This document shows, in pieces, positions 2,575-19,368 of a stretch of 51,632 bases of DNA. Below the pieces are notes generated by a model. It ran no database searches. It worked only from the letters and a program-made list of their open reading frames with translations, and was not told the origin of the DNA. Position 1 is the stretch's first letter, and each line of letters starts with the position of its first letter. Source of the stretch: Acidimicrobiia bacterium (lineage in GTDB: Bacteria > Actinomycetota > Acidimicrobiia > Acidimicrobiales > Poriferisodalaceae); the NCBI GenBank assembly GCA_022824805.1, contig JAJDZE010000002.1, positions 1-51,632 of the forward strand, read 5' to 3'. A program made the translations under genes and the position numbers.

Positions 2575-2625
2575 GTTCAGGTGTCCTTGTGCGAAGTCGG
2601 GTGAGTCTCAGCCAGCCGAGGTCGA

Positions 2626-3983: not shown

Positions 3984-4129
3984 GCGGCGCATCTCCCTCG
4001 TGTGCGGCGGATAGCGGCGGAATCGGCAGTGCTGCCGTCCGGCGGCGGTACTCCCGGCAGCGGACGATAGTTGCGCTGGCGACTGTCGGCACGACCTAGA
4101 CGGGAGGGACTCGGTTTGCCGCGCGGGTC

Positions 4130-4166
4130 TTGACATCACCTATTTGTAAGGTAGTATTACTAACAA
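4130..4166 (+). promoter_or_regulatory. candidate promoter and ROK operator, near-leaderless
   Basis: TTGACA at 4130-4135 is followed after 16 bp by TAGTAT (4152-4157), with TATTAC three bases further on. Either -10 puts transcription start within a few bases of the ATG at 4168, so the mRNA would be leaderless or nearly so; no Shine-Dalgarno is visible. An imperfect inverted repeat overlaps the -10: TTGTAAGGTA (4144-4153) against TTACTAACAA (4157-4166), 7 of 10 positions symmetrical around a 3-bp centre. An AT-rich palindrome in this position is what an autoregulating ROK repressor would use. Promoter and operator are inferred. Confidence 0.55.
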
Positions 4167-4167
4167 T

Positions 4168-5385
4168 ATGCCGGAAGTATCGGGCACGGCGGTGCCGGTG
4201 GCAGCATCGGGCACCTCGATGTTGAGGCTGCTGAGCGGCCAGCGCATTGCTGACGCGCTGTTCGCTGCACACCCGGGGCGCATGTCTCGCGCAGAAATTG
4301 CTCGCGCGACCGGACTGTCGAAGCCGACGGTGTCGGCGCTGATGGCGGATTTGGAGTCGGTCGGATTGGTCCGCCTGGCAGAAGGCAGCACCCGTTCGGG
4401 TTCGATCGGGCGACCGGCGGCGCCGTACGAGTTGGTGCCCTCGGCTCGTCACTGTGTGGTTGCCGACGTCGGAGCGACAACGCTGCGAGTCGGCCTTGCA
4501 GATCTGCTGGGCAACATCGTTGCAGAGGCCGTGGTGGAGACCGGTCCCGATGCGCCCTCGGCCCTTGAGCGGCTGATTCAGGCAGTGTCGCCGATGCTCG
4601 AGGCGGCTGGATCGCCGTGCCACGCGGTGTGCGTCGGTGTGCCGGGGATCTACCGGCCAGAACTGGATCGGGTCGAGCAGTCTCTCAGCCTGCCCGGCTT
4701 CGACGATGTGGCAGTGGCCCGGCTTCTGGGCGACGAATTCGGTGCCCCGGTGTTCGTGGAGAACGACGTCAACTTGGCCGCCTTGGGCGAGCTGACGTGC
4801 CTGGACGATGAAGACGGCGGGGGAGACTTCGCCGCGGTGTTCGCCGGGACCGGCATCGGTCTGGGCTTGGTGGTCGGGGGAGAGCTGTACCGCGGCGGCA
4901 CCGGTTCGGCGGGTGAGCTGGGGTCGCTGGTGGTGGCGATGCCCGAGTTGGACGCGGCGCCAGTGACGCTCGAGGACGTGGCGTCGGCACCGTCGATTCG
5001 CAAGCGCTTGGGTCAGGCAATCGAGGAAGGCCAGGAGTCGGCGCTGGATCTGAGTGCCGATGTCGCCGAGATCTTCGCCGCGGCGCGCCACAACGATTCG
5101 GCCGCTGCTGCTGTGTTCAGGGAAGTAGTCGATGCGATGGCGTTTGCGGCATCGCATCTCTGCCTCATCGCAGATCCGACTCGCATTGTGTTCGGCGGCC
5201 CGGTCGGCGCGGACCAGCGGTTCGTGGAAGCGGTGCGCGTTCGTCTTGACAATCTTGTGACGGTAACTCCCGCCCTGATGGCGTCGAGCCTGGGGGAGCG
5301 GGCGACACTCATCGGCGCTGCGTCCGTGTCGCAGCGGCACGTGCGCGAGTCGCTGATCTCAGAAGTGCTCGGAGAGCAGCAGTGA
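4168..5385 (+). CDS. ROK-family transcriptional regulator (NagC/XylR type)
   Basis: A 405-residue protein with an N-terminal winged helix-turn-helix (MSRAEIARATGLSKPTVSAL, about residues 39-58) and a C-terminal ROK actin-like fold: VVADVGATTLRVGLADLLGN, ENDVNLAALGE and GTGIGLGLVVGGELYRGG. The usual GH...CxCGxxGC zinc/sugar segment after GELG is missing (GELGSLVVAMPELDAAP). The protein is therefore a regulator rather than a kinase, and its effector site may differ from classical ROK repressors. It heads the amino-sugar-like operon and probably controls it, and perhaps also the divergent molybdenum hydroxylase, through the palindrome at 4144-4166. The ATG at 4168 appears leaderless. The 3' end overlaps the next gene by 4 bases (GTGA). 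Confidence 0.9.
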   Translation: MPEVSGTAVPVAASGTSMLRLLSGQRIADALFAAHPGRMSRAEIARATGLSKPTVSALMADLESVGLVRLAEGSTRSGSIGRPAAPYELVPSARHCVVADVGATTLRVGLADLLGNIVAEAVVETGPDAPSALERLIQAVSPMLEAAGSPCHAVCVGVPGIYRPELDRVEQSLSLPGFDDVAVARLLGDEFGAPVFVENDVNLAALGELTCLDDEDGGGDFAAVFAGTGIGLGLVVGGELYRGGTGSAGELGSLVVAMPELDAAPVTLEDVASAPSIRKRLGQAIEEGQESALDLSADVAEIFAAARHNDSAAAAVFREVVDAMAFAASHLCLIADPTRIVFGGPVGADQRFVEAVRVRLDNLVTVTPALMASSLGERATLIGAASVSQRHVRESLISEVLGEQQ

Positions 5386-6632
5386 GTTCGGTGGCTGAGC
5401 GGGCCGCCGCTGCAGTGGACGGCGACGAGGTGGTTCGGCTGGTGCGGGCAGCCACCGGTATCCCAAGCGTGACGCCGAACGAAGGGCCCTTCGCCCGATG
5501 GGTGCTGGAGACCATGGACTCCACCGGCGCTTTCGACGTCACGGGCTCGGCGGAGTTCGAACCTGGCCGGCCCAATGTGTGGGGCTCGGCTGGCGGTGAT
5601 TCGGGCCGGTCGCTGTTGCTCGCTGGCCACATGGACACGGTCGCCATCGATGATTGGTCGCAGCACTGGCAGGGCACTGAGCGCGCCGACCCATTCGGCG
5701 CGCATGTGATCGACGGCGAGATCTGGGGCCGCGGCGTCGCAGACCAGAAGGCGGGAATCTGCGCCATCGTCGAGGCGGTCAGCGCGGTCCGGCGCGCCGG
5801 GTTTCGGCCCGCCGGCAAAGTGTCGGCGCTGTTCGTATGCGACGAGGAGTCGGGCCAGCCCGGTAGTGGCGTATCGGCTGGCATACGGGCGGCAGTGCAC
5901 GGAGGGAGCGGTCCGGTTCCCAGCTCGGACTTCGCGATCTACACCGAACCGACAACCTCGGCGATCTACACGGCGCAGATGGGTTTCCTGATCGCCGATA
6001 TCACCTACACCGGCGTGTCGGCCTACTTCGGCAGGCCTGAGCTGGGTGTCGACGCGCTGCGGGCGGGTCACTCGCTGCTGGCGAAGCTGTGGGACTGTTC
6101 GGATGAGCTGCGGGAGTCCGTGCCGCCCCACGAGCTGCTGGGCAAGGCGTTCTTGCTGGTCACGTCGGTAACTGCCGGCGGCAACATCGCGGTGCCTGGA
6201 CGGTTCGATCTGTCGTTGATTCGCAAGCTCCTGCCGGGTGAAGACCTCGACGATGCGGCGGAGCAGATTCGCTCGATCGCTGCCAGCGTGGCGAAGGCCG
6301 AGGGTGTGGACTGCGAGGTCGAGTTCAACGCTGCACGCGACCACCCGGTGGGCGGCACGCCGGACGAGGTCAGCACTGAGCATTCCGGCGTACGGGTGCT
6401 AGCCGGCTCGATCGAGGCCGTGACCGGGGAGCCGGCGCGCATCGACGGTGCCCCGTTCTGGTCGGAGAAGTCGTTCCTGCGGGACCTGGGGATTCCCAGC
6501 GTCTATTTCGCGCCGGGCGATATCTCGAACTGCCATACGCCGTTTGAGCGGCTCAGCATCGATGAGCTCGTGACGGCGACACGCACGCTGGCCCACTTCA
6601 TCGCCGAGTGGTGCGAGATCACTGATCCGTAA
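5382..6632 (+). CDS. M20-family metallopeptidase / amidohydrolase (ArgE/DapE/CPG2-like)
   Basis: A 416-residue two-zinc amidohydrolase. The metal-binding set is complete: LLAGHMDTV (His, Asp), GRGVADQKAG (bridging Asp), CDEESG (catalytic Glu and ligand Glu), YTEPT (ligand) and ISNCHTPFE (last His). In the dimerisation domain the usual GxxxHxxxPxLGxNA motif reads GVSAYFGRPELGVDA, with Tyr in place of the conserved His that in related enzymes reaches into the partner's active site. Members hydrolyse N-acyl amino acids, small peptides or N-acetylated amines. Next to a sugar ABC transporter and NagB it could deacetylate or trim the imported substrate (inference). The GTG start overlaps the upstream stop (GTGA). 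Confidence 0.88.
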   Translation: MSSVAERAAAAVDGDEVVRLVRAATGIPSVTPNEGPFARWVLETMDSTGAFDVTGSAEFEPGRPNVWGSAGGDSGRSLLLAGHMDTVAIDDWSQHWQGTERADPFGAHVIDGEIWGRGVADQKAGICAIVEAVSAVRRAGFRPAGKVSALFVCDEESGQPGSGVSAGIRAAVHGGSGPVPSSDFAIYTEPTTSAIYTAQMGFLIADITYTGVSAYFGRPELGVDALRAGHSLLAKLWDCSDELRESVPPHELLGKAFLLVTSVTAGGNIAVPGRFDLSLIRKLLPGEDLDDAAEQIRSIAASVAKAEGVDCEVEFNAARDHPVGGTPDEVSTEHSGVRVLAGSIEAVTGEPARIDGAPFWSEKSFLRDLGIPSVYFAPGDISNCHTPFERLSIDELVTATRTLAHFIAEWCEITDP

Positions 6633-6652
6633 ACGGAACCCTGGGAGGGGAC

Positions 6653-7840
6653 ATGACCAAGAACAGAAGGGCATCCCGGCTGCTGCTGTGGGTGTCGCTG
6701 ATTGCAGCGTTCGCGCTGTTCGCCGCATCGTGCGGCGATGACGACGACGGTGCAGCTCCGGCGACCACCGCTGCCGCAGCAGCGCCCGAGCCCGAACCGG
6801 AGCCCGAGCCGGAACCTGAGCCTGAGCCTGCGCCCGAGCCGCCCAAGACGCAAGGCCCCGGTGGCGAAGAGGCGATCGCATCGGACGAGATCACGCTGAG
6901 CGATGACGAGATCGCCGAAGTGCAGCAGGGCGGTTACACGGCTGCGCTGCTGTGGCACACAGCCGGTGCGTTCACCGATGCGGTCAGCCAAGGCACCCGC
7001 GATGCCTTTGCAGAGCTGGGTATCGAGGTGATTGCCGAGACGAACGCCAACTTCGATGCCGCCCAGCAGGCCAATGACGTCGAAACGGTGATGGCCCAGC
7101 AGCCGGACATCATCATCAGCCTTGCTATCGGCCCCGATGCGGGCGCGGAGGCGTTCCGCCCGGCGGTGGAGGCGGGGGTGCATTTGGTGTTCCTGTCCAA
7201 CATCCCGCAGGGCTACGTGCACGGTGAGGACTACGTGGGCATCGTGACTGATGATCTGGCAGCCATGGGCATCACCGCGGCCAACCTGCTTGCCGACGCC
7301 CTCGGCGGTGAAGGCGAGGTGGGCTACATCTTCCACGATGCCGCCTATTACGTGACCAACCAGCGCGATCAGGCGTTCAAGTCGTGGATCGAGATCAACT
7401 ACCCCGGCATCACGATCGTCGCTGAGCAGGGGCTCGCAGACCCGGCGGCCGCTGAGGAGATCGCCACGGCAATGCTGACGCGCCACCCCGATCTGGATGG
7501 CATCTATGCACCGTGGTCGGCTGGCCCAGCCGACGGGGTCCTGGCGGCCCTGCGTGCTGCGGGGGCCTCCGATGTCGCGCTGGTGACGATGGACCTTGAC
7601 ACCAACGTGTCGCTGGATCTCGTCGAGGGAGGCAACGTCGTGGGAATCGCGGCCGACGAGGCTTACAACCTCGGCCGCACGATGGCGCTGGAAGGGGCCT
7701 ACGGGCTGTTGGGCAAGTCGGCGCCGGCGTTTGTCGTGGTGCCGGCGATCGGCGTGACCGCCGACAACATCGTCGAGGGCTACCAGCAGTCGCTGGCGGC
7801 CGATCCTCCCCAAGAAGTGCTCGACGCGCTGGACCGCTGA
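6653..7840 (+). CDS. ABC transporter substrate-binding lipoprotein (periplasmic-binding family 4, sugar type)
   Basis: A 395-residue lipoprotein. Its signal peptide (positive MTKNRRASR, then a hydrophobic stretch) ends in the lipobox FAASC. A Glu-Pro tandem repeat linker (PEPEPEP..., about residues 43-64) tethers the domain to the membrane. The remainder is a two-lobed type I sugar-binding fold: YTAALLWHTAGAFTDAV, QQPDIIISLAIGPDAG, GVHLVFLSNIPQGYV, DGIYAPWSAGPADGVLAAL and LVTMDLDTN, as in RbsB- or rhizopine-binding-like proteins. GGGAGGGG stands just before the ATG. It delivers substrate to the permease and ATPase downstream. A strong stem-loop follows the gene (7860-7898). Confidence 0.9.
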   Translation: MTKNRRASRLLLWVSLIAAFALFAASCGDDDDGAAPATTAAAAAPEPEPEPEPEPEPEPAPEPPKTQGPGGEEAIASDEITLSDDEIAEVQQGGYTAALLWHTAGAFTDAVSQGTRDAFAELGIEVIAETNANFDAAQQANDVETVMAQQPDIIISLAIGPDAGAEAFRPAVEAGVHLVFLSNIPQGYVHGEDYVGIVTDDLAAMGITAANLLADALGGEGEVGYIFHDAAYYVTNQRDQAFKSWIEINYPGITIVAEQGLADPAAAEEIATAMLTRHPDLDGIYAPWSAGPADGVLAALRAAGASDVALVTMDLDTNVSLDLVEGGNVVGIAADEAYNLGRTMALEGAYGLLGKSAPAFVVVPAIGVTADNIVEGYQQSLAADPPQEVLDALDR

Positions 7841-7859
7841 CGAGGAAACCCTCCCGTGG

Positions 7860-7898
7860 CTCGTGCCCCGTCGGCGAGACTCGTCGGCGGGGCACGAG
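7860..7898 (+). promoter_or_regulatory. long stem-loop between binding-protein and permease genes
   Basis: Two 19-base arms (7860-7878 and 7880-7898) pair along their full length, 17 Watson-Crick pairs and two G-U wobbles, around a one-base centre. No T-tract follows, so it is not a classical intrinsic terminator. Between a binding-protein gene and its permease such stems commonly protect the upstream mRNA or attenuate readthrough, raising binding protein over membrane components. That role is inferred from family practice. Confidence 0.75.
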
Positions 7899-7939
7899 GA
7901 TTCCATCTGCGCCTACACGAGTGAGTTGCGGTCGTCCAG

Positions 7940-8911
7940 TTGACTGAATCAGTGATCAAACGGGCTCTGCAGCGTCGGCAGTTCGCTGCGCCTCGCCAGT
8001 ACGTGGTCTATGCCGCCGCGGTTCTCATCTTCGGCCTGTTCGCTGTGGTGCTGCGCGATGACGGGTTCGTCACGGCTTCGAACCTGCTCAACATCGGCCG
8101 CCAAGCGGCCCCGATCGCCGTGATGGCGGTCGGGATGGCATTCGCGCTGGGTGCAGCCGAGATCGATCTGTCGATCGGCTCGGTCGCCGCGCTGTCGTCG
8201 TTGGTGGTGGCTGATGCGGTCGGCAGCCTCGGATTCGCAGCCGGTGTCGCCATCACGCTCGCGATCGGCATGGGGATCGGCGCCGTCAACGGCTTCATCG
8301 CCGTCAAGGTCCGCATCCCGTCGTTTCTGGTGACGCTGGGGACGCTCGGCATTGTCAGCGGCGTCGCTCGGAACCTCAACAACCTGCAATCGCTGCCGAT
8401 CCGCAACGACACCTACCTGAACGTGTTCGGCGCCGGATCGCTGGGCCCGATCTCATCACTGCTGATCTGGACCGTCATCGTCGGTGTTGTCGGCCATCTG
8501 GTGCTGCACCAGTTGCGCTGGGGCCGCCACGTGCTCGCCGTCGGCGCCGACCGTTCCGCTGCCGGGGCGCTGGGCATCAAGACGGACCGAGTTCGCATCG
8601 CTGCGCTCATCGCCAGCGCCACAGCGGCCTCGCTCGCAGGGATGCTGCTGGCCGGCCGGCTCGCCATCGGTCGGCACGACCTCGGCGAGAACCTGCTGCT
8701 GACGGTGATCGCCGCCGTCGTCATCGGCGGCACGAACCTGTTCGGCGGACGCGCCTCGGTCGCAGGCGCCATCGCCGGATCGATCGTCATGGCGATGCTC
8801 AACAACGGCCTCATCCTGATGGGCTTGCGCGTCGCAGATCAGCTCATCGCCCGCGGGGCAATCATCATCCTCGCTGTCGCGCTGAGCATGCGAGAGCAGA
8901 AGGAGACCTGA
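7940..8911 (+). CDS. sugar ABC transporter permease (RbsC/BPD_transp_2 family)
   Basis: A 323-residue integral membrane protein with about eight to ten hydrophobic segments. It shows the sequence typical of ribose/simple-sugar permeases: LNIGRQAAPIAVMAVGMAFAL, GAAEIDLSIGSVAALS, NGFIAVKVRIPSFLVTLG and VVIGGTNLFGGRASVAGAI. The start is uncertain: TTG at 7940 or GTG at 7952, neither with a strong Shine-Dalgarno, which fits post-stem-loop attenuation. It works with the lipoprotein at 6653 and the single-domain ATPase at 10118, although the YhfX-like gene interrupts the transporter genes. Confidence 0.9.
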   Translation: MTESVIKRALQRRQFAAPRQYVVYAAAVLIFGLFAVVLRDDGFVTASNLLNIGRQAAPIAVMAVGMAFALGAAEIDLSIGSVAALSSLVVADAVGSLGFAAGVAITLAIGMGIGAVNGFIAVKVRIPSFLVTLGTLGIVSGVARNLNNLQSLPIRNDTYLNVFGAGSLGPISSLLIWTVIVGVVGHLVLHQLRWGRHVLAVGADRSAAGALGIKTDRVRIAALIASATAASLAGMLLAGRLAIGRHDLGENLLLTVIAAVVIGGTNLFGGRASVAGAIAGSIVMAMLNNGLILMGLRVADQLIARGAIIILAVALSMREQKET

Positions 8912-8912
8912 G

Positions 8913-10121
8913 GTGTTCCTGGGCACGCTCCTGCAGCGCAATCGGGGATTCGTGCGCGCTGCGGTCGAACTGCACCAAGCCGGTCTCATCCCGGCCAACA
9001 GCTATGTGCTGGACCTCGACGCGATCGAAGCCAACACGGCCGGCCTGTGCCGTCGTGCTCACGAACTGCACCTCACCGTGTACGCGATGACCAAGCAGAT
9101 CGGTCGCGCCTCTGCAGCACTGGATGCGATCGCAGCCGGCGGCGCCGACGGGTTCGTCGCGGTGGACATGGCGTGCGCGCGCCCGATTGTCCGCAGCGGC
9201 CACGGCGTCGGCCATCTCGGCCACCTCGTGCAAGTGCCTCGCGGGGAGGCGGCCGAGGCCGCCGGCTTGGCACCCGACTACTGGACGGTGTTCTCGCGCA
9301 ACAAGGCCAGCGAAGCCGCCGCTGCCGCCCGCAGCCACGGCCGTTCACAACCGCTGTTGGTGCGCGTCTTCGACGAGAACGACGAGTTCTATCCAGGTCA
9401 CGAAGGCGGCATTGCGCTGAGCGATCTGCCGGCGATGATCGACCACATTGCTTCGCTTGACGGAGCGACCTTCGCCGGGCTCACCACCTTCCCTGCGCTG
9501 CTGTACGACGAGTCGTCCCGCAGCGCCCGCATCACCCCGAATATGGGAACGCTGGGCAGGGCTGCCGACATCGCCCGCCGCCATCGTGCCTGCCCCGAGC
9601 AGCTGCAGCTCAACGCCCCCGGCACTACCTCGACCGATGTGCTTCCGTTGCTGGCCGAGGCCGGAGCGACCCAAGCAGAGCCCGGACACGGCCTCAGCGG
9701 CACTACTCCGCTGCATGCGATCCGCGAGCTGCCCGAGCTGCCGGCAGTGCTCTATCTCAGCGAGATCGCACACCAGCATCAAGGCACGCCGTTGTGCTTC
9801 GGCGGCGGTCTGTACGTCGACCCGGTATTCGGCGACTACCAGGTTCGGGCCGTTGTGGCCGACGACCCGTCAGAGATCTCGACGCAGCCCGTGCCTGTTG
9901 ACATGCCCAGCCCGGCAGCGATCGACTACTACGCCAGGCTGGTTCCCGAAAGCCGGCGCATCTTCAAGGAGGGCTCGACGGTCATCTTCGGTTTCCGCGT
10001 GCAGGCCTTTGTCACCCGGGCGTTCGTCACGTGTGTCGCCGGTGTGGCAGGCGGCCAGCCCCGAGTTGTCGGAGTCTGGAACGGCTTCGGCGACCCTGTC
10101 CAGTTCGGGAAGCCGGCATGA
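8913..10121 (+). CDS. YhfX-like PLP-dependent protein (alanine racemase N-terminal fold)
   Basis: A 402-residue protein that resembles the YhfX family, which shares the fold-III barrel of alanine racemase. YVLDLDAIEANT is the first strand, and VYAMTKQIGR holds the probable PLP lysine (Lys61). NAPGTTSTDVLP and EPGHGLSGTTPLH are later family motifs, and QAFVTRAFVTCVAGV lies in the C-terminal domain. The reaction of YhfX proteins is not settled; racemisation or another PLP reaction on an amino acid or amino sugar acid is likely. The GTG start is one base after the permease stop and has AAGGAG upstream; the stop overlaps the ATPase start (ATGA). Its place inside the transporter operon suggests it acts on the imported compound. 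Confidence 0.8.
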   Translation: MFLGTLLQRNRGFVRAAVELHQAGLIPANSYVLDLDAIEANTAGLCRRAHELHLTVYAMTKQIGRASAALDAIAAGGADGFVAVDMACARPIVRSGHGVGHLGHLVQVPRGEAAEAAGLAPDYWTVFSRNKASEAAAAARSHGRSQPLLVRVFDENDEFYPGHEGGIALSDLPAMIDHIASLDGATFAGLTTFPALLYDESSRSARITPNMGTLGRAADIARRHRACPEQLQLNAPGTTSTDVLPLLAEAGATQAEPGHGLSGTTPLHAIRELPELPAVLYLSEIAHQHQGTPLCFGGGLYVDPVFGDYQVRAVVADDPSEISTQPVPVDMPSPAAIDYYARLVPESRRIFKEGSTVIFGFRVQAFVTRAFVTCVAGVAGGQPRVVGVWNGFGDPVQFGKPA

Positions 10122-10897
10122 ACGCCGCCGCACCGGCTGCAGCGCTCGAGGCGGAGGGCCTATGCAAGTCGTTCCGAGCGGTGCGAGCCCTGGATCATGT
10201 GGATCTCACCCTCCGCTACGGCGAGGTCACGGCCCTGCTGGGTGACAACGGTGCGGGCAAGTCGACGTTCGTGAAGTGCGTCGCCGGGGTGTACGCGCCC
10301 GATGCGGGAGTGCTGAGAGTCGACGGTGTCGCAACGTCGATCACCACCCCCGACGCGGCCCGCGCGCTGGGCATCGAGACCGTCCATCAGACACTCGCCG
10401 TCATCGACACGCTCGACGTTGCGGAGAACCTCTTCCTCAACCGGGAGCACACCCGCGGAGGGCCTATCGGCGCCTGGCTCGGCGTGCTCGACAAGAAGCG
10501 CATGCGAAGCGAGACCGAGCACATACTCGAACGGCTCGGCATTCGCATTCCGTCGCTGCGACACTCCATGGGCGCGCTATCGGGCGGGCAGCGCCAAGCT
10601 GTCGCCATCGGAAGGGCCACCGCGTGGGGACGGCAGATCGTCATGCTGGACGAGCCCGCAGCCGCCCTTGGCGTGGAACAGGCGGCGCGTGTGCTCGAAC
10701 TGATCCTGAACCTGCGGGAGGGCGGGGCGGCGGTGCTCCTGATCACCCACAACATGGATCGGGTCAGCGAAGTCTGCGACCGGGCGGTCGTGCTGCGCCA
10801 AGGACGCAAGACCGCCGAGGTCGCCGTCGGTGACGTCACCAAGGACGACCTCGTCGGCTACATCACCGGCGCGAAGTCCCAGCAGGCCCACTCATGA
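10118..10897 (+). CDS. sugar ABC transporter ATP-binding protein, single domain (FrcA-like)
   Basis: A 259-residue ABC ATPase with Walker A GDNGAGKST (42-50), signature LSGGQRQAVAIGRA, Walker B IVMLDEPAAALG and switch ITHNMD. Sugar importers of the RbsA type have two fused ABC domains; this one has one, like the fructose-importer FrcA, and would function as a homodimer. I start it at the ATG at 10118, overlapping the upstream stop by 4 bases; a longer frame to 10031 only re-reads the upstream gene. The residue after the Walker B aspartate-glutamate-proline is the family's AAALG rather than TAALG. Confidence 0.93.
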   Translation: MNAAAPAAALEAEGLCKSFRAVRALDHVDLTLRYGEVTALLGDNGAGKSTFVKCVAGVYAPDAGVLRVDGVATSITTPDAARALGIETVHQTLAVIDTLDVAENLFLNREHTRGGPIGAWLGVLDKKRMRSETEHILERLGIRIPSLRHSMGALSGGQRQAVAIGRATAWGRQIVMLDEPAAALGVEQAARVLELILNLREGGAAVLLITHNMDRVSEVCDRAVVLRQGRKTAEVAVGDVTKDDLVGYITGAKSQQAHS

Positions 10898-11742: not shown

Positions 11743-12527
11743 AGCTCATCGTTGCACCTGACCGAGCTTCCGCGGCGAAGCTCACGGCGGACATCATCGA
11801 ACGATTCGTCAGAGCCGCAGCACCGGCTGCGCTGGGAATCGCCACCGGTGCGACCATGGAGGAACCTCTCGCCGAAGTTGTGCGACGTCACCGGCGCGGC
11901 GCCTTCAGTCTGGCTCGCACTGAGATCTACCTGCTTGACGAGTACATCGGTCTCGAACCCGGTGGTCGCGACACGTTCAGGACCGCTGTTGATCGGTGTT
12001 TCGTGTCTCAGACAGACGTGCCGGTTGCGGCAGTGCATTCGCCGGATCCGCACGCGACAGATCTGGGTGCTGAGTGCGACCGCTACGAGCAGGAAGTGCG
12101 CGGCGCGCGGATCGGGCTCCAACTTCTCGGCATAGGAACCAATGGCCACATCGCCTTCAACGAGCCCGGCTCGGCGTTGACGAGCACGACTCGCGTGGTC
12201 GAGCTGAGCGAGCAAACGCGAACCGACAATGCCCGGTTCTTCGCGGGACGCACTGAACCGCCCACGACAGCGATCACACAAGGCATCGCCACCATCCTCG
12301 CTGCAAGGGAGTTGCTGCTGGTTGCCTGCGGGCCTTCAAAGGCATGCGCACTCGCTCGGGCCATTGAAGGCCCAGTCACCGAATCGATCCCCGCCTCCGC
12401 ACTTCAACTGCATCCCAACGCCACAGTCATTGCCGACCCGTCGGCTGCGTCCGAATTGGCGTCTGCGTCCGCTGCTCATGAGCCCCCATTCGATGTCCCA
12501 ATGACACCAGGAGTAGAGAATCAATGA
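11739..12527 (+). CDS. nagB: glucosamine-6-phosphate deaminase (NagB-like)
   Basis: A 262-residue protein with the NagB/6-phosphogluconolactonase-like fold. GIATGAT is the phosphate-binding loop, LLDEYIGL carries the catalytic Asp67, GIGTNGHIAFNEPGS has the ring-opening His137 and Glu142, and ITQGIATILAARELLLVACG is typical of the C-terminal part. It converts glucosamine-6-phosphate to fructose-6-phosphate and ammonia, feeding amino sugar into glycolysis. ATG at 11739 overlaps the kinase stop. No NagA deacetylase is present nearby; the M20 enzyme at 5382 might fill a deacylating role. Confidence 0.88.
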   Translation: MKLIVAPDRASAAKLTADIIERFVRAAAPAALGIATGATMEEPLAEVVRRHRRGAFSLARTEIYLLDEYIGLEPGGRDTFRTAVDRCFVSQTDVPVAAVHSPDPHATDLGAECDRYEQEVRGARIGLQLLGIGTNGHIAFNEPGSALTSTTRVVELSEQTRTDNARFFAGRTEPPTTAITQGIATILAARELLLVACGPSKACALARAIEGPVTESIPASALQLHPNATVIADPSAASELASASAAHEPPFDVPMTPGVENQ

Positions 12528-13573
12528 ACCAACACATGTCGCCGCGCCAGCGCAACGCAAGTGTTCGCCGACCGCTTGCGATGTCGTTACTCGTCACTGC
12601 ACTGTTGAGCGCATTCGTGGGGTATACCGCGCATCCGGCAGGAGCGGAAGACGCTAAAGTCATTGCGCCTTCGAAGACCTACGAAGAATTCATTGATGCC
12701 GTATGGGCCTTTGAGTCCGACATCGACCCGTCGCAGCAGTCCTACTACAACGAGAACTGGGATAACCCTGTCGTGGAGTCATACCCCGAAGTCGACTTCC
12801 CTGGTCGCGTCATTCGTGATGATGATGGCAATCCTGTCGAGGCATACAACCTCACGATCGAAGAACTCTTCCAAGTCATTGGCATCGGCGACTTATATCA
12901 TCCGAACGATCCTAACCCATCTTGGAAGCTCATCCAGTCGAATGTGATCAACTACCTCGGGTTCGTCGGCTTTCAGTTCCAAGAATCCGATCTTGTGGAT
13001 CTTGGATACTACGAGTATGAGACGATCACCATGATGCAAACCACCTACCCAATCCACTATGTTGACGTACCGAACAGCAACTGGGCAAACGGCGTCAGAC
13101 AATTCTTTGCCTATCCTCCGATCGTCGATGTGTCCACACTTGTACGTGACGTCGTCGTTTTTCGTGATGATTTTTTCACGGGCAAGAACGGCATCAACAC
13201 TTATGAAGACTTCACCACACCGGATAAGCACATTTTGGTGATCAAGGATCATTTCGCGAACAAGTACGAAGGCATCGTTTCTGGCCTCAAGGATCGAGGC
13301 AAGAGTCTTGGGGACTATCTCGGAACATATGTGTATTGGGATCAACTGGATCCGCCAGTGAATCCGCCGCCCGGAAAACGTGACAACAAGGTAGAGGTAA
13401 CGCTTTCCGGCCTTTTGGCCGGCGCGCACTTGCGCGGCGCAGAAGGTGTCGTGTCGTTGCTCGTGGATCACAAGAATCCGTCCGACGAGAACGGCACCTA
13501 TATTCTTCAGTATGTGCAGGACTACGCGGGGTACGACACGCCTTTCGGAAGTCGCTTTTCGAGTTCAAGGTGA
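12524..13573 (+). CDS. secreted protein, possible lysozyme-like (peptidoglycan-active) fold
   Basis: A 349-residue exported protein: twin-arginine-free signal peptide (hydrophobic core about residues 19-36) with a likely signal peptidase site near AGA-ED (about residue 41). It is not a lipoprotein. I do not recognise a named family with certainty. The pattern YEEFIDAVWAFES, then NYLGFVGFQFQESDLVDLGYY, then FTGKNGINTYEDF, then LSGLLAGAHLRGAEGV, recalls secreted lysozyme/transglycosylase-like proteins in which the Glu of the first motif (here Glu64) is catalytic. This is recall, not a search. Base composition is visibly less GC-rich than its neighbours (for example gatgattttttcacg near 13165), suggesting recent acquisition. 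AGGAG precedes the ATG, which overlaps nagB (ATGA). Confidence 0.6.
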   Translation: MNQHMSPRQRNASVRRPLAMSLLVTALLSAFVGYTAHPAGAEDAKVIAPSKTYEEFIDAVWAFESDIDPSQQSYYNENWDNPVVESYPEVDFPGRVIRDDDGNPVEAYNLTIEELFQVIGIGDLYHPNDPNPSWKLIQSNVINYLGFVGFQFQESDLVDLGYYEYETITMMQTTYPIHYVDVPNSNWANGVRQFFAYPPIVDVSTLVRDVVVFRDDFFTGKNGINTYEDFTTPDKHILVIKDHFANKYEGIVSGLKDRGKSLGDYLGTYVYWDQLDPPVNPPPGKRDNKVEVTLSGLLAGAHLRGAEGVVSLLVDHKNPSDENGTYILQYVQDYAGYDTPFGSRFSSSR

Positions 13574-13583
13574 TATTCCGATC

Positions 13584-14027
13584 TTGACACGGTCGGCAAT
13601 CCGGCAAAGTGCTCGACGGTGCCTACTCGTCTTGTGTGCTGTCGGCGCGTTGACGGGTTGCGTTTGGGATGACGCGGACGACTACGAGGTCAGATTCGGC
13701 GACAACGCAGAACTGCTGTCGTGGTGCTTCGTCGAACACGATGGTTATCTGCAGATCGACGTGAGACAGATTCGTTTCGGTAGCCAGTACCAAATGGTTG
13801 CCGGTCGCTTCGACCCTGCCGCAGCAGATCTCATCTACCGTCACCTGAGCGAACATCTCCGTCGTCGTGACGTGGCGAATCTGAACGTCGAGATGAGTGT
13901 GGCGAGGCTCTGCGCGGACCAGCCGAGTGAGCAGCCTCCGAATTGGCTCAGGCTCAGCACTGACGGAACGTTCATGCCTGCACCACCACGCTCCGCTCCT
14001 GCCGCTACGCCCGCGGCGGGCGGATGA
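13584..14027 (+). CDS. small putative lipoprotein of unknown function
   Basis: From the TTG at 13584 this encodes 147 residues, starting MTRSAIRQSARRCLLVLCAV and reaching a lipobox ALTGC, so it is predicted to be a membrane-anchored lipoprotein. AAGGTGA, overlapping the upstream stop codon, is 10 bases before the TTG. The frame is open further upstream, but that part overlaps the secreted-protein gene in another frame. The mature part has two further cysteines and a proline-rich tail. I recognise no family. It probably belongs to the same transcript as the secreted protein. Confidence 0.6.
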   Translation: MTRSAIRQSARRCLLVLCAVGALTGCVWDDADDYEVRFGDNAELLSWCFVEHDGYLQIDVRQIRFGSQYQMVAGRFDPAAADLIYRHLSEHLRRRDVANLNVEMSVARLCADQPSEQPPNWLRLSTDGTFMPAPPRSAPAATPAAGG

Positions 14028-14082
14028 TCGCAGCCGCTCGGCTGTCGGTGACCGATGGCGCGCCGAAACATAGGCTCGGCTC

Positions 14083-15048
14083 ATGACGGCAACCGATCCG
14101 CCGGGGCGAATGGAGGCCGAGCATCTGGCCCACTGCCCGCAGCGGCCTACCGCAGCGGGCAGGCTCGCCGTTCGGGTCTCCTATCCGGCCGTCATCCTGC
14201 TGGGAGTGGGCATCTACGCCGCCTCCGCATCGCTGGGGATGCCGGCTGTGGCGGCGTCATACGTTGCCGTGCTGGCTGGGGCGGGGCTGGTCACGCTTCA
14301 CGAGATCGCTCTGCCCTACCGCACCGAATGGCGCCCCCAGGGTGCTGAAGTGCGAGCCGATGTGGCGTTCATGGTGGCCGTCCAGGTGGTGCTGCCGCTG
14401 CTGGGGTCGCTGGCAGCGACGGCGGCGTTCGCCGGATGGCTGCGCGAGGGCGACCTGACCCTCGGGGGCCTGTGGCCGCACAGCTGGCCCGTTGCGCTGC
14501 AGGCGGCGCTGATGATGGCCGTGGCCGACTTCTTCCGCTACTGGCTGCACCGGGCGTTCCACGGCTCAGCCTTCATGTGGCGCTGGCATGCCGTGCACCA
14601 CTCGCCGCACCGGCTGTACTGGCTGAATGTCGGGCGCTTCCACCCAGGAGAGAAGGCAGTCCAGTTCTGCGTCGACGCGTTGCCGTTCGTGCTGGTGGGC
14701 GTGGGAAGCGAGGTGCTCGCGGCGTACTTCGTGTTCTACGCGCTGAACGGCTTCTACCAGCACTCCAACTGCGATGTGCGCCTCGGGTGGCTCAACTACC
14801 TCATCAGCGGCCCGGAGCTGCATCGCTGGCATCACTCGGAACTGCCTGCGGAGTCGGATCACAACTTCGGCAACAACCTCATCATCTGGGACGTGCTGTT
14901 CGGCACCCGGTACCTTCCCGACGACGCAGCGGTCGGACGGCTCGGACTGCTGAACCGCGACTACCCGGCAGGCTTCCTGGCCCAGATGCGCACCCCCTTT
15001 ATTCGAGGACTCGACAAGCGAGCAGCCGACACGGCGACGCCGTCGTGA
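14083..15048 (+). CDS. fatty acid hydroxylase / sterol desaturase superfamily protein
   Basis: A 321-residue membrane di-iron oxygenase. It has four to six hydrophobic segments and the full histidine set on the cytoplasmic face: HRAFH (156-160), HAVHH (169-173), YQHSN (His227) and HRWHH (247-251), with a final His260-Asn. Such enzymes hydroxylate or desaturate lipid chains, sterols or carotenoids using O2. It is the first gene of a compact operon; its stop overlaps the GTG of the GH3 gene (GTGA). No clear Shine-Dalgarno precedes the ATG. Confidence 0.9.
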   Translation: MTATDPPGRMEAEHLAHCPQRPTAAGRLAVRVSYPAVILLGVGIYAASASLGMPAVAASYVAVLAGAGLVTLHEIALPYRTEWRPQGAEVRADVAFMVAVQVVLPLLGSLAATAAFAGWLREGDLTLGGLWPHSWPVALQAALMMAVADFFRYWLHRAFHGSAFMWRWHAVHHSPHRLYWLNVGRFHPGEKAVQFCVDALPFVLVGVGSEVLAAYFVFYALNGFYQHSNCDVRLGWLNYLISGPELHRWHHSELPAESDHNFGNNLIIWDVLFGTRYLPDDAAVGRLGLLNRDYPAGFLAQMRTPFIRGLDKRAADTATPS

Positions 15049-16754
15049 CCGCCAGATCGGCGACCGACGGCCTCAGCTACCGACTGCTTCGGGCCGGGCT
15101 GGCAGCGGCCAGCGGGCGCACCTACCGCGGGCTTGTTCGTGCATGCGCCGATCCGGGGGCGGTTCAGCACCAGGTGCTGCAGCGCATCCTCTCCGATAAC
15201 GCCGGCTCGGTGTTCGGCACTGATCACCGCTTCGGCTCGATCGCCGGCGTCGAGGACTACCGCCGTGCCGTGCCGGTGCAGACCTACGAAGACCTGAGGG
15301 AGGCGATCGAGCGGCAGGAAGCCACCGGCCAGCAGTGCCTCACTGCTGAGCAGCCGGTCTATTTCAACCAGACCAGCGGCACCGTCGCCGAGCCGAAGAA
15401 CATCCCGCTCACCAAGGCCGGCCTCGCCCGCATCCAGCGCTTGCAGCGACTCGCGGCCTACGCGCTGTCGCGGCGCACGGCCGCGCTCGGCGGCAAGGTG
15501 TTCGCAGTGACCGGTGCCGCGCACGAGGGCACCATGCCGGCAGGCACGCCGTACGGCTCGGCGTCGGGGTTGCTGTACGCAAGCCAGGGCAAGCTGCTGC
15601 GTCGCCGGTACGTGCTGCCCGCGCCGGTGTCGGACATCGCCGACTACGACGCCCGCTACTTGGCCATGGCGGTGCTGGGCGCAGCTGACGGCGCCGTGAC
15701 CACGATGGCGACGGCCAACCCCTCGACGTTCATCCGGCTGATGAACGTGCTCAATGACTCGGCCGACGTGGTGCTCGACGCAGTGGCCGCCGGGCGGCTG
15801 CCCGCTGGCTGCAACGTGCCTGGGCGCGACGACCAGCTCGGACTCCGCGCAGACCCGAAGCGAGCGGCGGCGCTCGGTCGACGCCTCGAGGCCGCAGGCC
15901 GACTCACCTATGCCGACATCTGGAGCGATCTGCGTGCGGTGGTGACGTGGACCGGGGGGAGCTGCGGCTTGGCGATCGAGCGTCTCGAGCCGATGCTGAC
16001 ATCCGATTGCCCGGTGTTCGAGCTCGGCTATCTCGCCAGCGAAGTCAGCGGCACTGTCAACATCGATCCGATTGCCGGCGCCTGCGTCGCGACCCTGCAA
16101 GACAACTTCTTCGAGTTCGCTGAACGCGATGGGTGGGAGGCTGCTGCCGACGATGCCGACCGTGGCCGGCAGACGTGCACCTTGGCCGATCTCGAGGCCG
16201 GCCGCGATTACTACGTCATCGTGACCACGGCCGACGGCCTGTACCGCTACGACATGAACGACATCGTGCGGGTGACGGGCTTCGTCGACCGCACGCCGGT
16301 CCTGTCGTTCGTTCAGAAGGGCAAGGGCGTCACCAGCATCACGGGCGAGAAGCTGTACGAGTTCCAGGTGATGTCGGCCGTGACCGCTGCTGTTGCCGAG
16401 TTCGGCACCGTGGCGCCGTTCTTCATCATGCTGGCCGACGTGGCACAGGCCCGCTACACGCTCAATGTGGAACTGGCGAGCACGCCGGCTGGCCCACAGA
16501 GGGCCGATCTTGCCGGCGAGCTGTCAAACAGGGTCGAACGAGCGCTGCGGCAGGCCAATGTCGAGTACGACCAGAAGCGAGCCAGCGGCCGGCTGGCGCC
16601 GCTGCGCGTCCGGTTCCTCGCAGCGGGCACGGGCGATGAATTCAGGCGCCAGCGCGTCGCAGGCGGTCAGCGTGACGTGCAGTTCAAGTACCTCCGGCTG
16701 CAATACAGCGCCGATTGCTCGTTCCGCTTCGACGACTTCGCAGCGCCGGCCTGA
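15045..16754 (+). CDS. GH3-family acyl-adenylate amide synthetase
   Basis: A 569-residue member of the GH3 (auxin-responsive promoter) family, known from plants as enzymes that adenylate a carboxylic acid and transfer it to an amino acid. ATP-site motifs are YFNQTSGTVAEPKNIPLT (about 106-123), ELGYLASEVSG and YRYDMNDIVRVTGF (about 400-413), followed by a C-terminal GH3 domain with FVQKGKGVTSITGEKLYEFQ. Bacterial GH3 proteins are poorly characterised. Between a lipid hydroxylase and an enolase-superfamily epimerase it probably joins a fatty or aromatic acid to an amino acid (inference). GTG start, 4-base overlap with the upstream stop. Confidence 0.88.
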   Translation: MTARSATDGLSYRLLRAGLAAASGRTYRGLVRACADPGAVQHQVLQRILSDNAGSVFGTDHRFGSIAGVEDYRRAVPVQTYEDLREAIERQEATGQQCLTAEQPVYFNQTSGTVAEPKNIPLTKAGLARIQRLQRLAAYALSRRTAALGGKVFAVTGAAHEGTMPAGTPYGSASGLLYASQGKLLRRRYVLPAPVSDIADYDARYLAMAVLGAADGAVTTMATANPSTFIRLMNVLNDSADVVLDAVAAGRLPAGCNVPGRDDQLGLRADPKRAAALGRRLEAAGRLTYADIWSDLRAVVTWTGGSCGLAIERLEPMLTSDCPVFELGYLASEVSGTVNIDPIAGACVATLQDNFFEFAERDGWEAAADDADRGRQTCTLADLEAGRDYYVIVTTADGLYRYDMNDIVRVTGFVDRTPVLSFVQKGKGVTSITGEKLYEFQVMSAVTAAVAEFGTVAPFFIMLADVAQARYTLNVELASTPAGPQRADLAGELSNRVERALRQANVEYDQKRASGRLAPLRVRFLAAGTGDEFRRQRVAGGQRDVQFKYLRLQYSADCSFRFDDFAAPA

Positions 16755-16777
16755 GCGAGCTTGGCCGAGGTGAATGC

Positions 16778-17908
16778 GTGCAGATTCTCCGTCTGAAGAC
16801 GTTCACCTTCCCCGTGCCGTTCAAGCGCGTCTTTCGGCATGCCTCTGCGAGCCGCCGCCACGCCGAGAACCTCATCGTCGCGGCCCACGCTGATGACGGC
16901 ACGATCGGCTACGGGGAAGGGTGTCCACGGCTGTACGTGACCGGGGAGACGGTCGGGGGTTGCGCCTCCTTCGTCAACCAGCACGCCGCGTCGTTCTGCG
17001 CGGAAGTCGGGAGCGTGGACGACTTGCGTTCCTGGATCGACGCCCATAGCGACGCCATCGACGAGAACCCGGCCGCGTTCTGCGCGATGGAGCTTGCCGC
17101 CCTCGACCTGCTGGGCAAGGCGAGCGGCCGCAACATCGAGCAGCTGCTGGGTGTTGCCTCGGGCCCACCCGATGTGGCCTATACCGCTGTCCTGGGCGAC
17201 ATGGGTCTGCCGCTGTATCGATGGCAGCTACGCGGATTTCGTGTTCGGGGCTTCACCGACTTCAAGGTGAAGCTCTCGGGCTCGCTGCGGCGTGACCGCG
17301 CCAAGCTGGCGCCGTTCGTTTCCCGCGGGTCGAGCCCGGCGACGGTTCGCCTCGATGCGAACAACCTCTGGGAGACGCCCGAGCAGTGCACAGCGCACTT
17401 GGATGCACTGGGCGGTGTCGCATTCGCCGTCGAGGAGCCGCTGCAGGCGGGTGATGTCGACGGCTGCATGCGCGTCGCGCAGCAATGCCGGGTGAAGATC
17501 ATCGCCGACGAGAGCTTGCGGCTCGCCCGGCAGCTCGAAGCGCTGGCGGCGCCATCGGCGTGGATCGCGAACGTGCGGGTGTCGAAGATGGGCGGGATCG
17601 TGCGGTCGCTGGACGTGGTGGCTGCTGCCGCGCGCGCCGGCATTGACGTCATCGTCGGATGCCAAGTGGGAGAGACGAGCCTGCTCACCCGGGCGGCGCT
17701 CGCCGTCATCGCAAGCGCTCCGGGTGCCGTTGTGGGGGCCGAGGGTGCCTTCGGGACGCATCTGCTGGCCCGCGATCTCACCGATCAGACGATCATGTGG
17801 GGCTACGGGGGAATGCTGCACGGACGCGACGTGCCCGATCGCAGCGGCGGGGGGCTGGGTCTGCGGCTCGATCCCGCGGCCGTCCTGGTGCCGCTGGAAG
17901 ACAGGTGA
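16778..17908 (+). CDS. enolase-superfamily epimerase/racemase (muconate lactonizing enzyme subgroup)
   Basis: A 376-residue protein with the complete MLE-subgroup active site: the KxK acid-base pair in TDFKVKLSG (Lys163, Lys165), the three Mg ligands in VRLDANNLW, AVEEPLQ and IADESL, and the opposing lysine in VSKMGGI. This arrangement supports 1,1-proton transfer as in dipeptide epimerases, N-acyl amino acid racemases and o-succinylbenzoate synthase. The GTG at 16778 is chosen because GAGGTGA lies just upstream. Following a GH3 amide synthetase, an N-acyl amino acid or dipeptide substrate is the most economical reading, but the specificity loop cannot be assigned by eye. Confidence 0.87.
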   Translation: MQILRLKTFTFPVPFKRVFRHASASRRHAENLIVAAHADDGTIGYGEGCPRLYVTGETVGGCASFVNQHAASFCAEVGSVDDLRSWIDAHSDAIDENPAAFCAMELAALDLLGKASGRNIEQLLGVASGPPDVAYTAVLGDMGLPLYRWQLRGFRVRGFTDFKVKLSGSLRRDRAKLAPFVSRGSSPATVRLDANNLWETPEQCTAHLDALGGVAFAVEEPLQAGDVDGCMRVAQQCRVKIIADESLRLARQLEALAAPSAWIANVRVSKMGGIVRSLDVVAAAARAGIDVIVGCQVGETSLLTRAALAVIASAPGAVVGAEGAFGTHLLARDLTDQTIMWGYGGMLHGRDVPDRSGGGLGLRLDPAAVLVPLEDR

Positions 17909-18363
17909 ACGACGCGCGATTCGCCGCGGCCAGCCTCGCACTGGGCCTCGCATTCCTGGCCCGGGTCGCGGGTCAAGCTGTGCAGCGCTGGTGGGACGTG
18001 GCCTTCCTGCCTTCCCAAGACGCCTGGCAAGGCAGCAGCCTGCCGTTCCCTGCGCTGTTCGCGGCCCAAGTGGTGATCCTGATGATCATCGCGGCGGCGA
18101 CGCTGCGTATGCGAGCGGGCCGGAACCTCTTTGGGCGGCGCTGGAGGCGACCAGTCGCTTGGTTCGGCGTCGTCTACTTCGCCGTGATGTCGGCGCGCTT
18201 GGCGGTCGGGCTCCTCGGCGATGCCGGCGCGTTCGGCGACGAGCGCTTCGCTGCCGGGAAGTGGTTCACTGCCTACCTGCCGACAGCATTCCACCTGGTC
18301 CTGGCGGCCGAGGTGATGCTGTTCGCGGCATATCAACGAGGGCGCCCCCAACCCGCTGGTTGA
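17905..18363 (+). CDS. small four-helix membrane protein, unknown function
   Basis: A 152-residue integral membrane protein with four predicted helices, centred on AAASLALGLAFLARVAG, FAAQVVILMIIAAATL, VVYFAVMSARLAVGLLG and FHLVLAAEVMLFAAYQ. Basic residues sit between helices 2 and 3. The GTG start overlaps the stop of the epimerase gene (GTGA), so it is translationally coupled and part of the same operon. I recognise no family; an accessory or transport role for the operon product is possible. Confidence 0.75.
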   Translation: MNDARFAAASLALGLAFLARVAGQAVQRWWDVAFLPSQDAWQGSSLPFPALFAAQVVILMIIAAATLRMRAGRNLFGRRWRRPVAWFGVVYFAVMSARLAVGLLGDAGAFGDERFAAGKWFTAYLPTAFHLVLAAEVMLFAAYQRGRPQPAG

Positions 18364-18375
18364 ACAGGCGCGAGG

Positions 18376-18404
18376 TTGGGGCGGTCGTGGGGGATCGGTA
18401 GCCT
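18376..18404 (+). promoter_or_regulatory. candidate promoter of the rplC ribosomal operon
   Basis: TTGGGG (18376-18381) and TAGCCT (18399-18404) are spaced by 17 bp. The same GGTAGCCT string stands 74 bp before rplM (46425-46432), which supports a shared housekeeping -10. Initiation near 18411 would leave a 5' leader of about 255 nt before rplC. Confidence 0.45.
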
Positions 18405-18666
18405 GCTTCATTCGCGGCGCGGACTTCCTGCGTCGAACTGACGTCCGGCAAGGCCGGATGCCTCCCCACAATGGGTCGGGTGTTCGGAACCGGTCGGCAC
18501 AACCTCCAGAACCGCTCCGCCGGCACAGCCGTGCGGAGCGTTCGCATGGCGGCCCGCTGAGCGGGCGGCCATAGAGACAGCGGCCCGCTGAGCGGGCGGC
18601 CGAAGGGAAAACTGCTCGCGATGCGGGCAGTGAGATGCACGGCGAAAGCACGAGAGAGACGCGCAC
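18405..18666 (+). promoter_or_regulatory. structured non-coding leader before rplC
   Basis: The 303-bp gap between 18363 and 18667 holds no plausible gene. Four hairpins can be drawn: TCCGGC-AAG-GCCGGA (18444-18458); a longer stem GCTCCGC/GCGGAGC (18514-18539) with an inner GGC-ACA-GCC; and two tandem copies of a GCCCGC-TGA-GCGGGC hairpin (18550-18601). Ribosomal protein operons are often autoregulated through such leaders (L4 in the Escherichia coli S10 operon), so this may be a regulatory RNA. Function is inferred from position and structure. A GAGAGAG stretch precedes the ATG of rplC. Confidence 0.5.
18550..18601 (+). repeat. two tandem copies of a 21-bp palindromic element
   Basis: Identical 21-bp copies lie at 18550-18570 and 18581-18601, period 31 bp. 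Each folds as GCCCGC-TGA-GCGGGC with flanking GGC/GCC. The same GCCCGC/GCGGGC core occurs at 10-29, so it may be a dispersed palindromic repeat family of this genome. Confidence 0.8.
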
Positions 18667-19368
18667 ATGGCCAACAGGGCGCTTGTCGCCACCAAGGTCG
18701 GCATGACACAGCTCTGGGACGACGACAACCGCGTCGTCCCGGTCACCGTGCTGCGCGTCGACGACTGCCGGGTCACCCAGGTGCGCACCAACGAGCAAGA
18801 CGGCTACACCGCGGTGCAGGTCACCTATGGCCACCGTGAGGCCCGCAAGGTCAACAAGCCCACCAACGGCCACTACGAGCGAGCCGGGATCGACCCTGGC
18901 GTACGGCTCGTAGAGCTGCGGCTCGACGATGTGAGCGAAGTATCGGTCGGCACCGAATTGGGTGCCGACCTTTTCAGTCCTGGAGAGCTTGTCGATGTGA
19001 CAGCCACCTCCAAGGGCAAGGGCTTCGCCGGCACCATGAAGCGGCACAACTTCTCGGGTCAGCGCGCCAGCCATGGTGCGCACCGGGTCCACCGGGCGCC
19101 GGGCGCCATCGGCGCATGCGCCACACCCTCACGGGTGTTCAAGGGCACCCGCATGGCCGGCCGCATGGGCGGCGAGAAGGTCACCACGCTCAACCTTTCG
19201 GTAGTCGAGGCCGACGCCGAGCGGGGCCTGCTGCTGGTGCGCGGCTCGGTCCCCGGTCCCAAGGGCGGCACCGTTGTCGTCCGCAATGCAGTCAAAGCGC
19301 CGCAAGGCGCGTCCAACAGCACAGCGCCGCAAGGCGCGTCAAACAACACAGCGTCGGCTGAGGTCTGA
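18667..19368 (+). CDS. rplC: 50S ribosomal protein L3 (uL3)
   Basis: The 233-residue protein begins [20 protein letters not shown] and contains the L3 signature around [18 protein letters not shown] and RMAGRMGG. It nucleates 23S rRNA domain VI assembly. It is about 20 residues longer than usual; the extra C-terminus is two copies of a nine-residue repeat beginning APQGASN, encoded by a 27-nt tandem duplication (19296-19349). It is first in the cluster; rpsJ, normally directly upstream, is absent here. Confidence 0.98.
19296..19349 (+). repeat. 27-nt in-frame tandem repeat (x2) in rplC with GNRA-type hairpins
   Basis: Copies at 19296-19322 and 19323-19349 match at 25 of 27 positions. Each contains GCGCC-GCAA-GGCGC (19297-19310, 19324-19337), a five-pair stem capped by a GCAA tetraloop, so the mRNA end carries two stable hairpins. 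The repeat keeps the reading frame and ends just before the stop codon. Confidence 0.9.

Follow-up and report, generated by a model that had tools for sequence, protein, structure and literature searches.

The gene set and its relatives

The DNA analysed here, referred to as the window, is a stretch of 51,632 nucleotides from an Acidimicrobiia bacterium (assembly GCA_022824805.1), contig 12 in a 3.69-Mb genome of 211 contigs. Positions 14083 to 18363 hold four adjacent genes, encoding a hydroxylase (HYD), an acyl-acid amido synthetase (GH3), an enolase (MLE) and a small membrane protein (MEM). The genes and their relevant motifs are:

14083..15048, + strand: HYD, membrane di-iron hydroxylase of the FA_hydroxylase superfamily, 321 aa, ATG start
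15045..16754, + strand: GH3, ATP-dependent acyl-acid amido synthetase, 569 aa, GTG start, with three GH3 Pfam domains
15363..15413, + strand: nucleotide motif I region of GH3, FNQTSGTVAEPKNIPLT, residues 107-123
16233..16283, + strand: motif III region of GH3, DGLYRYDMNDIVRVTGF, residues 397-413
16778..17908, + strand: MLE, enolase superfamily, KxK (muconate-lactonizing) subgroup, 376 aa, GTG start, proposed N-acyl-amino-acid epimerase
17264..17272, + strand: KxK catalytic lysines of MLE, K163-V164-K165 (position computed from the GTG at 16778)
17905..18363, + strand: MEM, 152-aa membrane protein with four long helices, GTG start, orphan

The stop of HYD and the start of GH3 overlap in GTGA (15045-15048), as do the end of MLE and the start of MEM (17905-17908), and the spacer between GH3 and MLE is 23 bp (16755-16777). 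We call the set an operon because of these overlaps and of the conserved gene order. A scan of 13900-18700 for sigma-70-like promoters gave zero matches, which carries little weight because only 0.2 were expected by chance. The initial annotation, made from the sequence alone, described four genes joined by GTGA overlaps or a 23-bp gap and carrying full catalytic motifs; this is correct, and the coordinates are exactly as it gave them. The two results that could have overturned it, i.e., a set not conserved in relatives and active-site residues that fail to align, did not occur: conservation extends far beyond close relatives, and the residues of both GH3 and the enolase do align. It is thus confirmed that the four-gene set, with intact catalytic motifs, is real and well conserved.

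Relatives were found via six peptide patterns in a collection of 84,980 species, which gave 57 loci with a GH3 relative (not a census), most of them in records titled metagenome-assembled genome (MAG). Loci are labelled L and genomes G below. Searched by tblastn with the window proteins, 43 of the 57 loci contain the enolase and 36 the hydroxylase. The clade of the window GH3 comprises 41 loci: 36 assigned by the tree, L040 and L056 by identity, and L075-L077 of the same order. In all 41 the enolase lies 3' of GH3 on the same strand, and in 38 the hydroxylase lies 5' of GH3; the contigs of L037, L056 and L077 end at GH3. The clade records are labelled Actinomycetota, Pseudomonadota, Chloroflexota, Binatota, Gemmatimonadota and others.

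The 63-row GH3 tree, from which L040 (frameshifted GH3) and L056 (a fragment) were left out, places 40 clade rows (the window, L002-L037 and L075-L077), all with an enolase, in one group with an SH-aLRT support of 100. Enolase-bearing rows outside this group are L038, L039, L042, L043 and L048. SH-aLRT is the only support measure of our trees, and the program warned of some long branches meeting. Pairwise distances point in the same direction as the gene order. Among 35 rows with all three genes, including the window (the truncated L016, L028 and L035 were dropped), the correlation is 0.934 for GH3-enolase, 0.688 for GH3-hydroxylase and 0.698 for enolase-hydroxylase, figures that are raised by the inclusion of near-identical rows; for each of the three pairs, none of 999 permutations was as high. 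The gene set is therefore beyond chance, as the same order is met again in records whose labels name distant phyla and the GH3 and enolase distances correlate.

The distribution of the set is patchy. In the genus of the window, GH3 is found in nine of eleven genomes including its own, where a whole-genome search found one, and the other eight also have the adjoining hydroxylase and enolase. No GH3 was found in 50 other genomes of the same family and order. Across the class Acidimicrobiia, GH3 was present in five of 395 sampled genomes, among them that of the window. This enolase accompanies it in four, three of which also have hydroxylase and MEM, while the fourth (L077) is cut by its contig. 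Similarly, in the class sample of L009 (titled Gammaproteobacteria), GH3 occurs in 14 of 274 genomes, with hydroxylase or enolase only in the genome of L009 itself (flanks of ~1.5 kb fetched). Because of this patchiness, the data suggest that the gene set was gained laterally. The GH3 tree does not prove this, as the named Actinomycetota rows form one group. GH3 relatives also occur on plasmids (8 records, all <60% identity), and the 6-7 kb flanks of three of these (two Streptomyces, one Burkholderia) contain no match to HYD, the enolase or MEM. In eleven of the 38 named clade loci the record prefixes APA, RHO, IRC, COS or CAR match the initials of sponges that Robbins et al. sampled (PMC8163846), and from these record names we infer a possible sponge association of the carriers.

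The enzymes and the small membrane protein

HYD matches Pfam FA_hydroxylase with 102.9 bits (cut-off 31). In its 39-row alignment the histidine boxes are kept in every covering row, i.e., H156, H160, H169, H172 and H173 in 37 of 37 and H247, H250 and H251 in 38 of 38. The sole NCBIfam model matched is OlsE (NF052566, 176.8 bits), an enzyme that hydroxylates the ornithine moiety of ornithine lipids (PMC3972451). HYD and GH3 form a single reading frame in L034 (7110-9680, 857 aa) and in L035 (2-2008, where the contig start cuts the gene), and these two fusions argue for HYD working next to GH3.

GH3 matches all three Pfam domains of its family (GH3 169.9, GH3_M 69.4 and GH3_C 60.4 bits; cut-off 23.6 each). 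Its three nucleotide-binding motifs, TSGT..K, Y-L-A-S-E and GLYRYDMND, are present, and TSGT with K118, S332-E333, GLYRYDM with D406, and GEK are kept in 38-40 of the 39-40 covering clade rows. Also here a single NCBIfam model is matched, OlsH (NF052613, 99.4 bits), and L009 resembles the window in both enzymes (OlsE 181.5, OlsH 103.2 bits). Five GH3s outside the window clade score alike (93.2-120.6 bits), so the OlsH match marks GH3 in general and not this clade. OlsH itself joins ornithine to free fatty acids in an ATP-dependent reaction that yields N-acyl-ornithine (J Biol Chem 2025, PMC12493201). Its GH3 has >7500 bacterial BLAST matches, a substrate is assigned for one enzyme, and the authors expect different amino acids for other GH3s (PMC12493201).

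The genes that follow GH3 vary outside the clade. In L041 (7980-17617 for both genes) GH3 is directly followed by a polyketide synthase of 2642 aa that includes a thioesterase domain, a similar large gene comes after GH3 in L044 and L052, and in L049 (914-5013, GH3 included) the following gene is an MMPL-family exporter. The contexts in L041 and L049 suit lipid acids.

For the enolase, the Pfam match to MR_MLE_C is 88.3 bits (cut-off 29.4), and MR_MLE_N falls just below its cut-off of 22 with 20.4 bits. Its sequence motifs, i.e., the KxK lysines, the D/E/D metal ligands and the lysine of a later strand, assign it to the MLE subgroup, in which the KxK pair serves two-base transfer of an alpha-proton. 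K163, K165, D193, E219, D244 and K270 are present in 32 of 32 aligned rows. The placement in this subgroup by the initial annotation thus holds for the subgroup and for the catalytic residues, but the DxD motif of the dipeptide epimerases, to which it had also pointed, is absent. In its place E322-G323 is invariant (32/32 rows), while both comparison enolases annotated as 'dipeptide epimerase', which are plasmid-borne, have DLD in this region. A standard dipeptide epimerase is therefore rejected. The C-terminal DxD binds the free ammonium of dipeptide substrates, and its absence fits a substrate whose amine is blocked.

Specificity in the MLE subgroup is shaped by the 20s and 50s loops. H21, R26, R51, Y53 and R267 are invariant in the same 32 rows, and the signature H21/R26/R51/Y53 is complete in none of eight comparison enolases, five plasmid-borne and three paralogues from the window genome (a genome search found four MR_MLE_C proteins there). 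Parts of it occur, as an arginine aligned with R26 in Natrinema and a tyrosine aligned with Y53 in the C108 paralogue. In the enolase tree the 32 GH3-linked proteins and the 8 others lie on opposite sides with an SH-aLRT of 89, which is not conclusive.

By profile, the closest solved chains are the dipeptide epimerase 3jva (198.9 bits) and 2p88 (196.5 bits), which we take to be an N-succinyl-Arg/Lys racemase; the L-Ala-D/L-Glu epimerase 1jpm follows with 178.3 bits. The best NCBIfam equivalog is DgcA, N-acetyl-D-Glu racemase (83.9 bits, cut-off 400), and the top subfamily match is 'muconate/chloromuconate family cycloisomerase' (89.9 bits, cut-off 334.95). MenC, o-succinylbenzoate synthase, was rejected at 51.9 and 56.9 bits against cut-offs of 130.55 and 200.65; a separate protein on contig 5 passes one of these cut-offs (143.6 over 130.55), so the operon enolase is not the MenC of this genome. 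Taken together, the enolase probably epimerises an amino acid whose nitrogen is blocked, and its recognition element is distinct and probably polar or anionic.

MEM matches no Pfam or NCBIfam family, and a Foldseek search of the PDB gave no relative of its fold at E <= 0.001 (best E 0.6). Its structure model has four long helices (pLDDT 86.9, pTM 0.80), and its alignment has 17 invariant columns across 23 rows. It is present in 30 of the 41 clade loci, either 3' of the enolase or 5' of the hydroxylase (L015, L021, L031, L040 and L075), and ~4.5 kb upstream of the hydroxylase in L022-L025 and L029. Among the eleven loci without it, the contigs of L016 and L028 end within the enolase gene. A whole-genome search covered eight of the other nine (all but L037); it found MEM elsewhere on the same contig in L034 and did not find it in the genomes of L020, L026, L027, L030, L033, L035 and L077, which as MAGs may be incomplete. 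MEM is for this reason best seen as accessory, and nothing shows the handling of the product that the initial annotation had ascribed to it.

MEM also occurs away from the GH3 genes, on contigs equal in length to those of the GH3 loci: in two genomes, that of L034 (titled Gemmatimonadetes) and that of L042 (Tanganyikabacteria), it forms a pair with a hydrolase of the CocE/NonD family. These pairs lie at L085 7106-9407 and at about L086 8490-6273 (minus strand), and the hydrolases score 363.7 and 344 bits over a cut-off of 66.3. In L022 a PotA-type ABC importer cassette lies between MEM and the hydroxylase (2134-10777, all on the same strand), its PotA-type ATPase scoring 362.3 over 355.6.

A proposed pathway and its competitors

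We suggest that the operon makes an N-acyl amino acid that is both epimerised and hydroxylated and is most likely an aminolipid, a proposal that we hold to be evenly poised between right and wrong. First, GH3 would form the acyl-AMP of its carboxylic acid substrate, which is probably a free fatty acid, and, by the chemistry of its family, would join the activated acyl group to the amino group of an amino acid. Then the KxK enolase would take the alpha-proton of this N-acyl amino acid and return it on the opposite face, by which the D form would be given or equilibrated. Finally, the membrane hydroxylase would oxidise the amphiphile, on the headgroup, as OlsE does, or on the chain. MEM would be an optional partner in the membrane, associated probably with either the hydroxylase or the finished lipid. 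A hydroxylated N-acyl amino acid was also the product put forward by the initial annotation, and it is partly supported, in that the set is best read as amide formation by GH3 and subsequent epimerisation of the N-acyl amino acid.

Several observations weigh against an aminolipid pathway. No O-acyltransferase is found among the four genes, and neither of the two enzymes with a lipid-pathway match is an equivalog of it, as HYD reaches 176.8 of the 475 bits required for OlsE and GH3 99.4 of the 620 bits required for OlsH. The invariant H21, R26, R51 and Y53 of the enolase are rather polar for a plain fatty acyl chain. Fourteen of the 57 GH3 loci lack an enolase match (one, L050, is cut at the contig start), and some GH3 neighbours, i.e., a HAD hydrolase in L055 and L057 and a transaldolase in L046, are uninformative on lipids. 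MEM and HYD form a single frame in L040, which may be an assembly error because the GH3 of this locus is frameshifted. Finally, uptake genes lie beside some relatives (the PotA-type ABC importer in L022, a TonB receptor in L012). These would suit uptake or catabolism, against a purely biosynthetic reading, but they could also supply the amine.

The polar enolase residues and the uptake genes bear also on the alternative that survives best, in which the logic is the same and the product is small and polar. Here the acid that GH3 couples to the amino acid, before epimerisation and hydroxylation, would be short, polar or anionic. The invariance of H21, R26, R51, Y53 and the acidic E322 (32/32) speaks for this, as do the several operons that adjoin uptake genes. 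However, the nearest NCBIfam member of the hydroxylase acts on lipids, a membrane partner is present in MEM, and the known bacterial GH3 uses fatty acids (PMC12493201), and we therefore consider such a product unlikely, though well worth keeping in mind.

That the enolase has DgcA as its best equivalog suggests another alternative, the handling of D-amino acids in the manner of DgcN-DgcA, which PMC10845958 cites as a route from D-Glu to L-Glu. N-acylation by GH3 would then prepare the amino acid for racemisation to the usable form by the enolase. This we find improbable, as the set has no deacylase, the hydroxylase would be left without a role, ATP would be spent, and the DgcA match reaches 83.9 of 400 bits.

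A true ornithine-lipid pathway, with GH3 as OlsH, the hydroxylase as OlsE and the enolase turning ornithine, has likewise only a slim chance of being correct. The nearest NCBIfam models for two of the four genes speak for it, as do the PotA-type importer in L022 and the lack of any match to PF13444, the OlsB/OlsF-type domain, in a search of the whole window genome. On the other side, both equivalog cut-offs are missed by far, and the OlsH operon includes the hydrolase OlsI (PMC12493201), which has no counterpart in the window set. R26, R51 and H21 of the enolase would also be odd partners for a basic side chain. Finally, the enolase might be no epimerase at all and act as a lyase, dehydratase or cycloisomerase on another intermediate. 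For this speak the presence of such activities in the MLE subgroup and the top subfamily match, a cycloisomerase family (89.9 of 334.95 bits). It is very improbable, as both KxK lysines and K270 are invariant and a separate protein of the genome passes a MenC cut-off.

A second version of the gene set may exist. The enolase and GH3 come after a haem-oxygenase-like iron oxidase (PF14518) in L042 and L048, without the membrane hydroxylase, and L043 has similar proteins, with the oxidase recognised by eye. The three genes span 6188-9731 in L042, 968-5344 in L048 and 2008-6495 in L043; L048 additionally encodes a protein that has an acyltransferase domain (PF00198). In L038 the enolase and GH3 are preceded by an alpha/beta-hydrolase. 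Iron oxidase, enolase and GH3 together may be an old theme, seen in few loci.

It can be speculated that a laterally spread gene set makes an undescribed class of aminolipids, with a headgroup that is D-epimerised by the enolase and then hydroxylated, in several phyla, including a number of records whose names would suit sponge metagenomes, and with a second version, built around the haem-oxygenase-like iron oxidase, in records labelled Myxococcota/delta proteobacterium and Tanganyikabacteria. This wider claim is tentative, and we would lean against it if pressed. If true, a D-configured hydroxylated aminolipid would be a new route to membrane or signalling lipids and, should the sponge link hold, would have a bearing on animal-microbe symbiosis. 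The gene set also offers a testable function for a whole further clade of GH3, links this clade with a subfamily of KxK enolases that has a signature of its own and, with MEM, adds a small membrane protein family unnamed by Pfam.

Genomic surroundings and known systems

Ribosomal genes, rplC onward, begin downstream of MEM at 18667 (recognised by eye), and two imperfect tandem copies of 31 nt (87%) lie in between, at 18549-18610. In three genomes of sister genera (G011, G013 and G016) rpsJ and rplC are spaced by ~230-240 bp. Among four genomes viewed from the genus of the window, the two genes are on different contigs in three (its own, G002 and G007) and 5.5 kb apart in G006, and the genes adjoining rplC differ among the four. 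S10 was the only ribosomal protein of this region sought with a family model. It seems that the S10 operon is split in this genus, with the genes studied here sitting at the split. In G006, homologues of a three-gene molybdopterin dehydrogenase set (MoCo subunit, 2Fe-2S and FAD; minus strand, 304-3992 in the window) sit between rpsJ and rplC. Just upstream of the operon, 12524-13573 and 13446-14027 encode predicted proteins without a Pfam or NCBIfam family; both are matched in L006 and the second also in L016, with no match in L002-L005, L007 and L008.

The initial annotation knew of no bacterial pathway with this set of genes. A bacterial GH3 lipid pathway does exist (OlsH/OlsI, PMC12493201), so it is only this particular set that is undescribed, apparently, although it is built of known enzyme families. 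Among the matches listed, no open-access paper had GH3, enolase and hydroxylase together in its title or the start of its abstract, which is weak evidence of absence.

Compared with known systems, the window GH3 shares its GH3 domains and adenylation motifs with the plant amido synthetases for IAA, JA and benzoate. However, the sequence similarity is low (best E 9.7e-25), and the window has no hormone context. The enolase resembles 3jva, 2p88 and DgcA in sequence family, KxK pair and metal ligands, and the plasmid-borne comparison enolases H34, H35, H36, H37 and H41 are 27-29% identical to it. HYD is of the same superfamily as OlsE, its residues 32-308 covering model positions 9-285 of 293, but its context differs, as no OlsB/OlsF-type domain was found in the window genome. 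The closest parallel to the operon as a whole is the OlsH/OlsI/OlsG operon of Singulisphaera acidiphila, i.e., a bacterial GH3 within a lipid operon that makes an amide from a free acid and an amino acid at the expense of ATP, with three recognisable nucleotide motifs (PMC12493201). None of the four window genes encodes an OlsI-type alpha/beta-hydrolase. The partners are thus different: OlsH stands beside an N-methyltransferase and an alpha/beta-hydrolase O-acyltransferase, whereas HYD, the enolase and the orphan MEM accompany the GH3 of the window.

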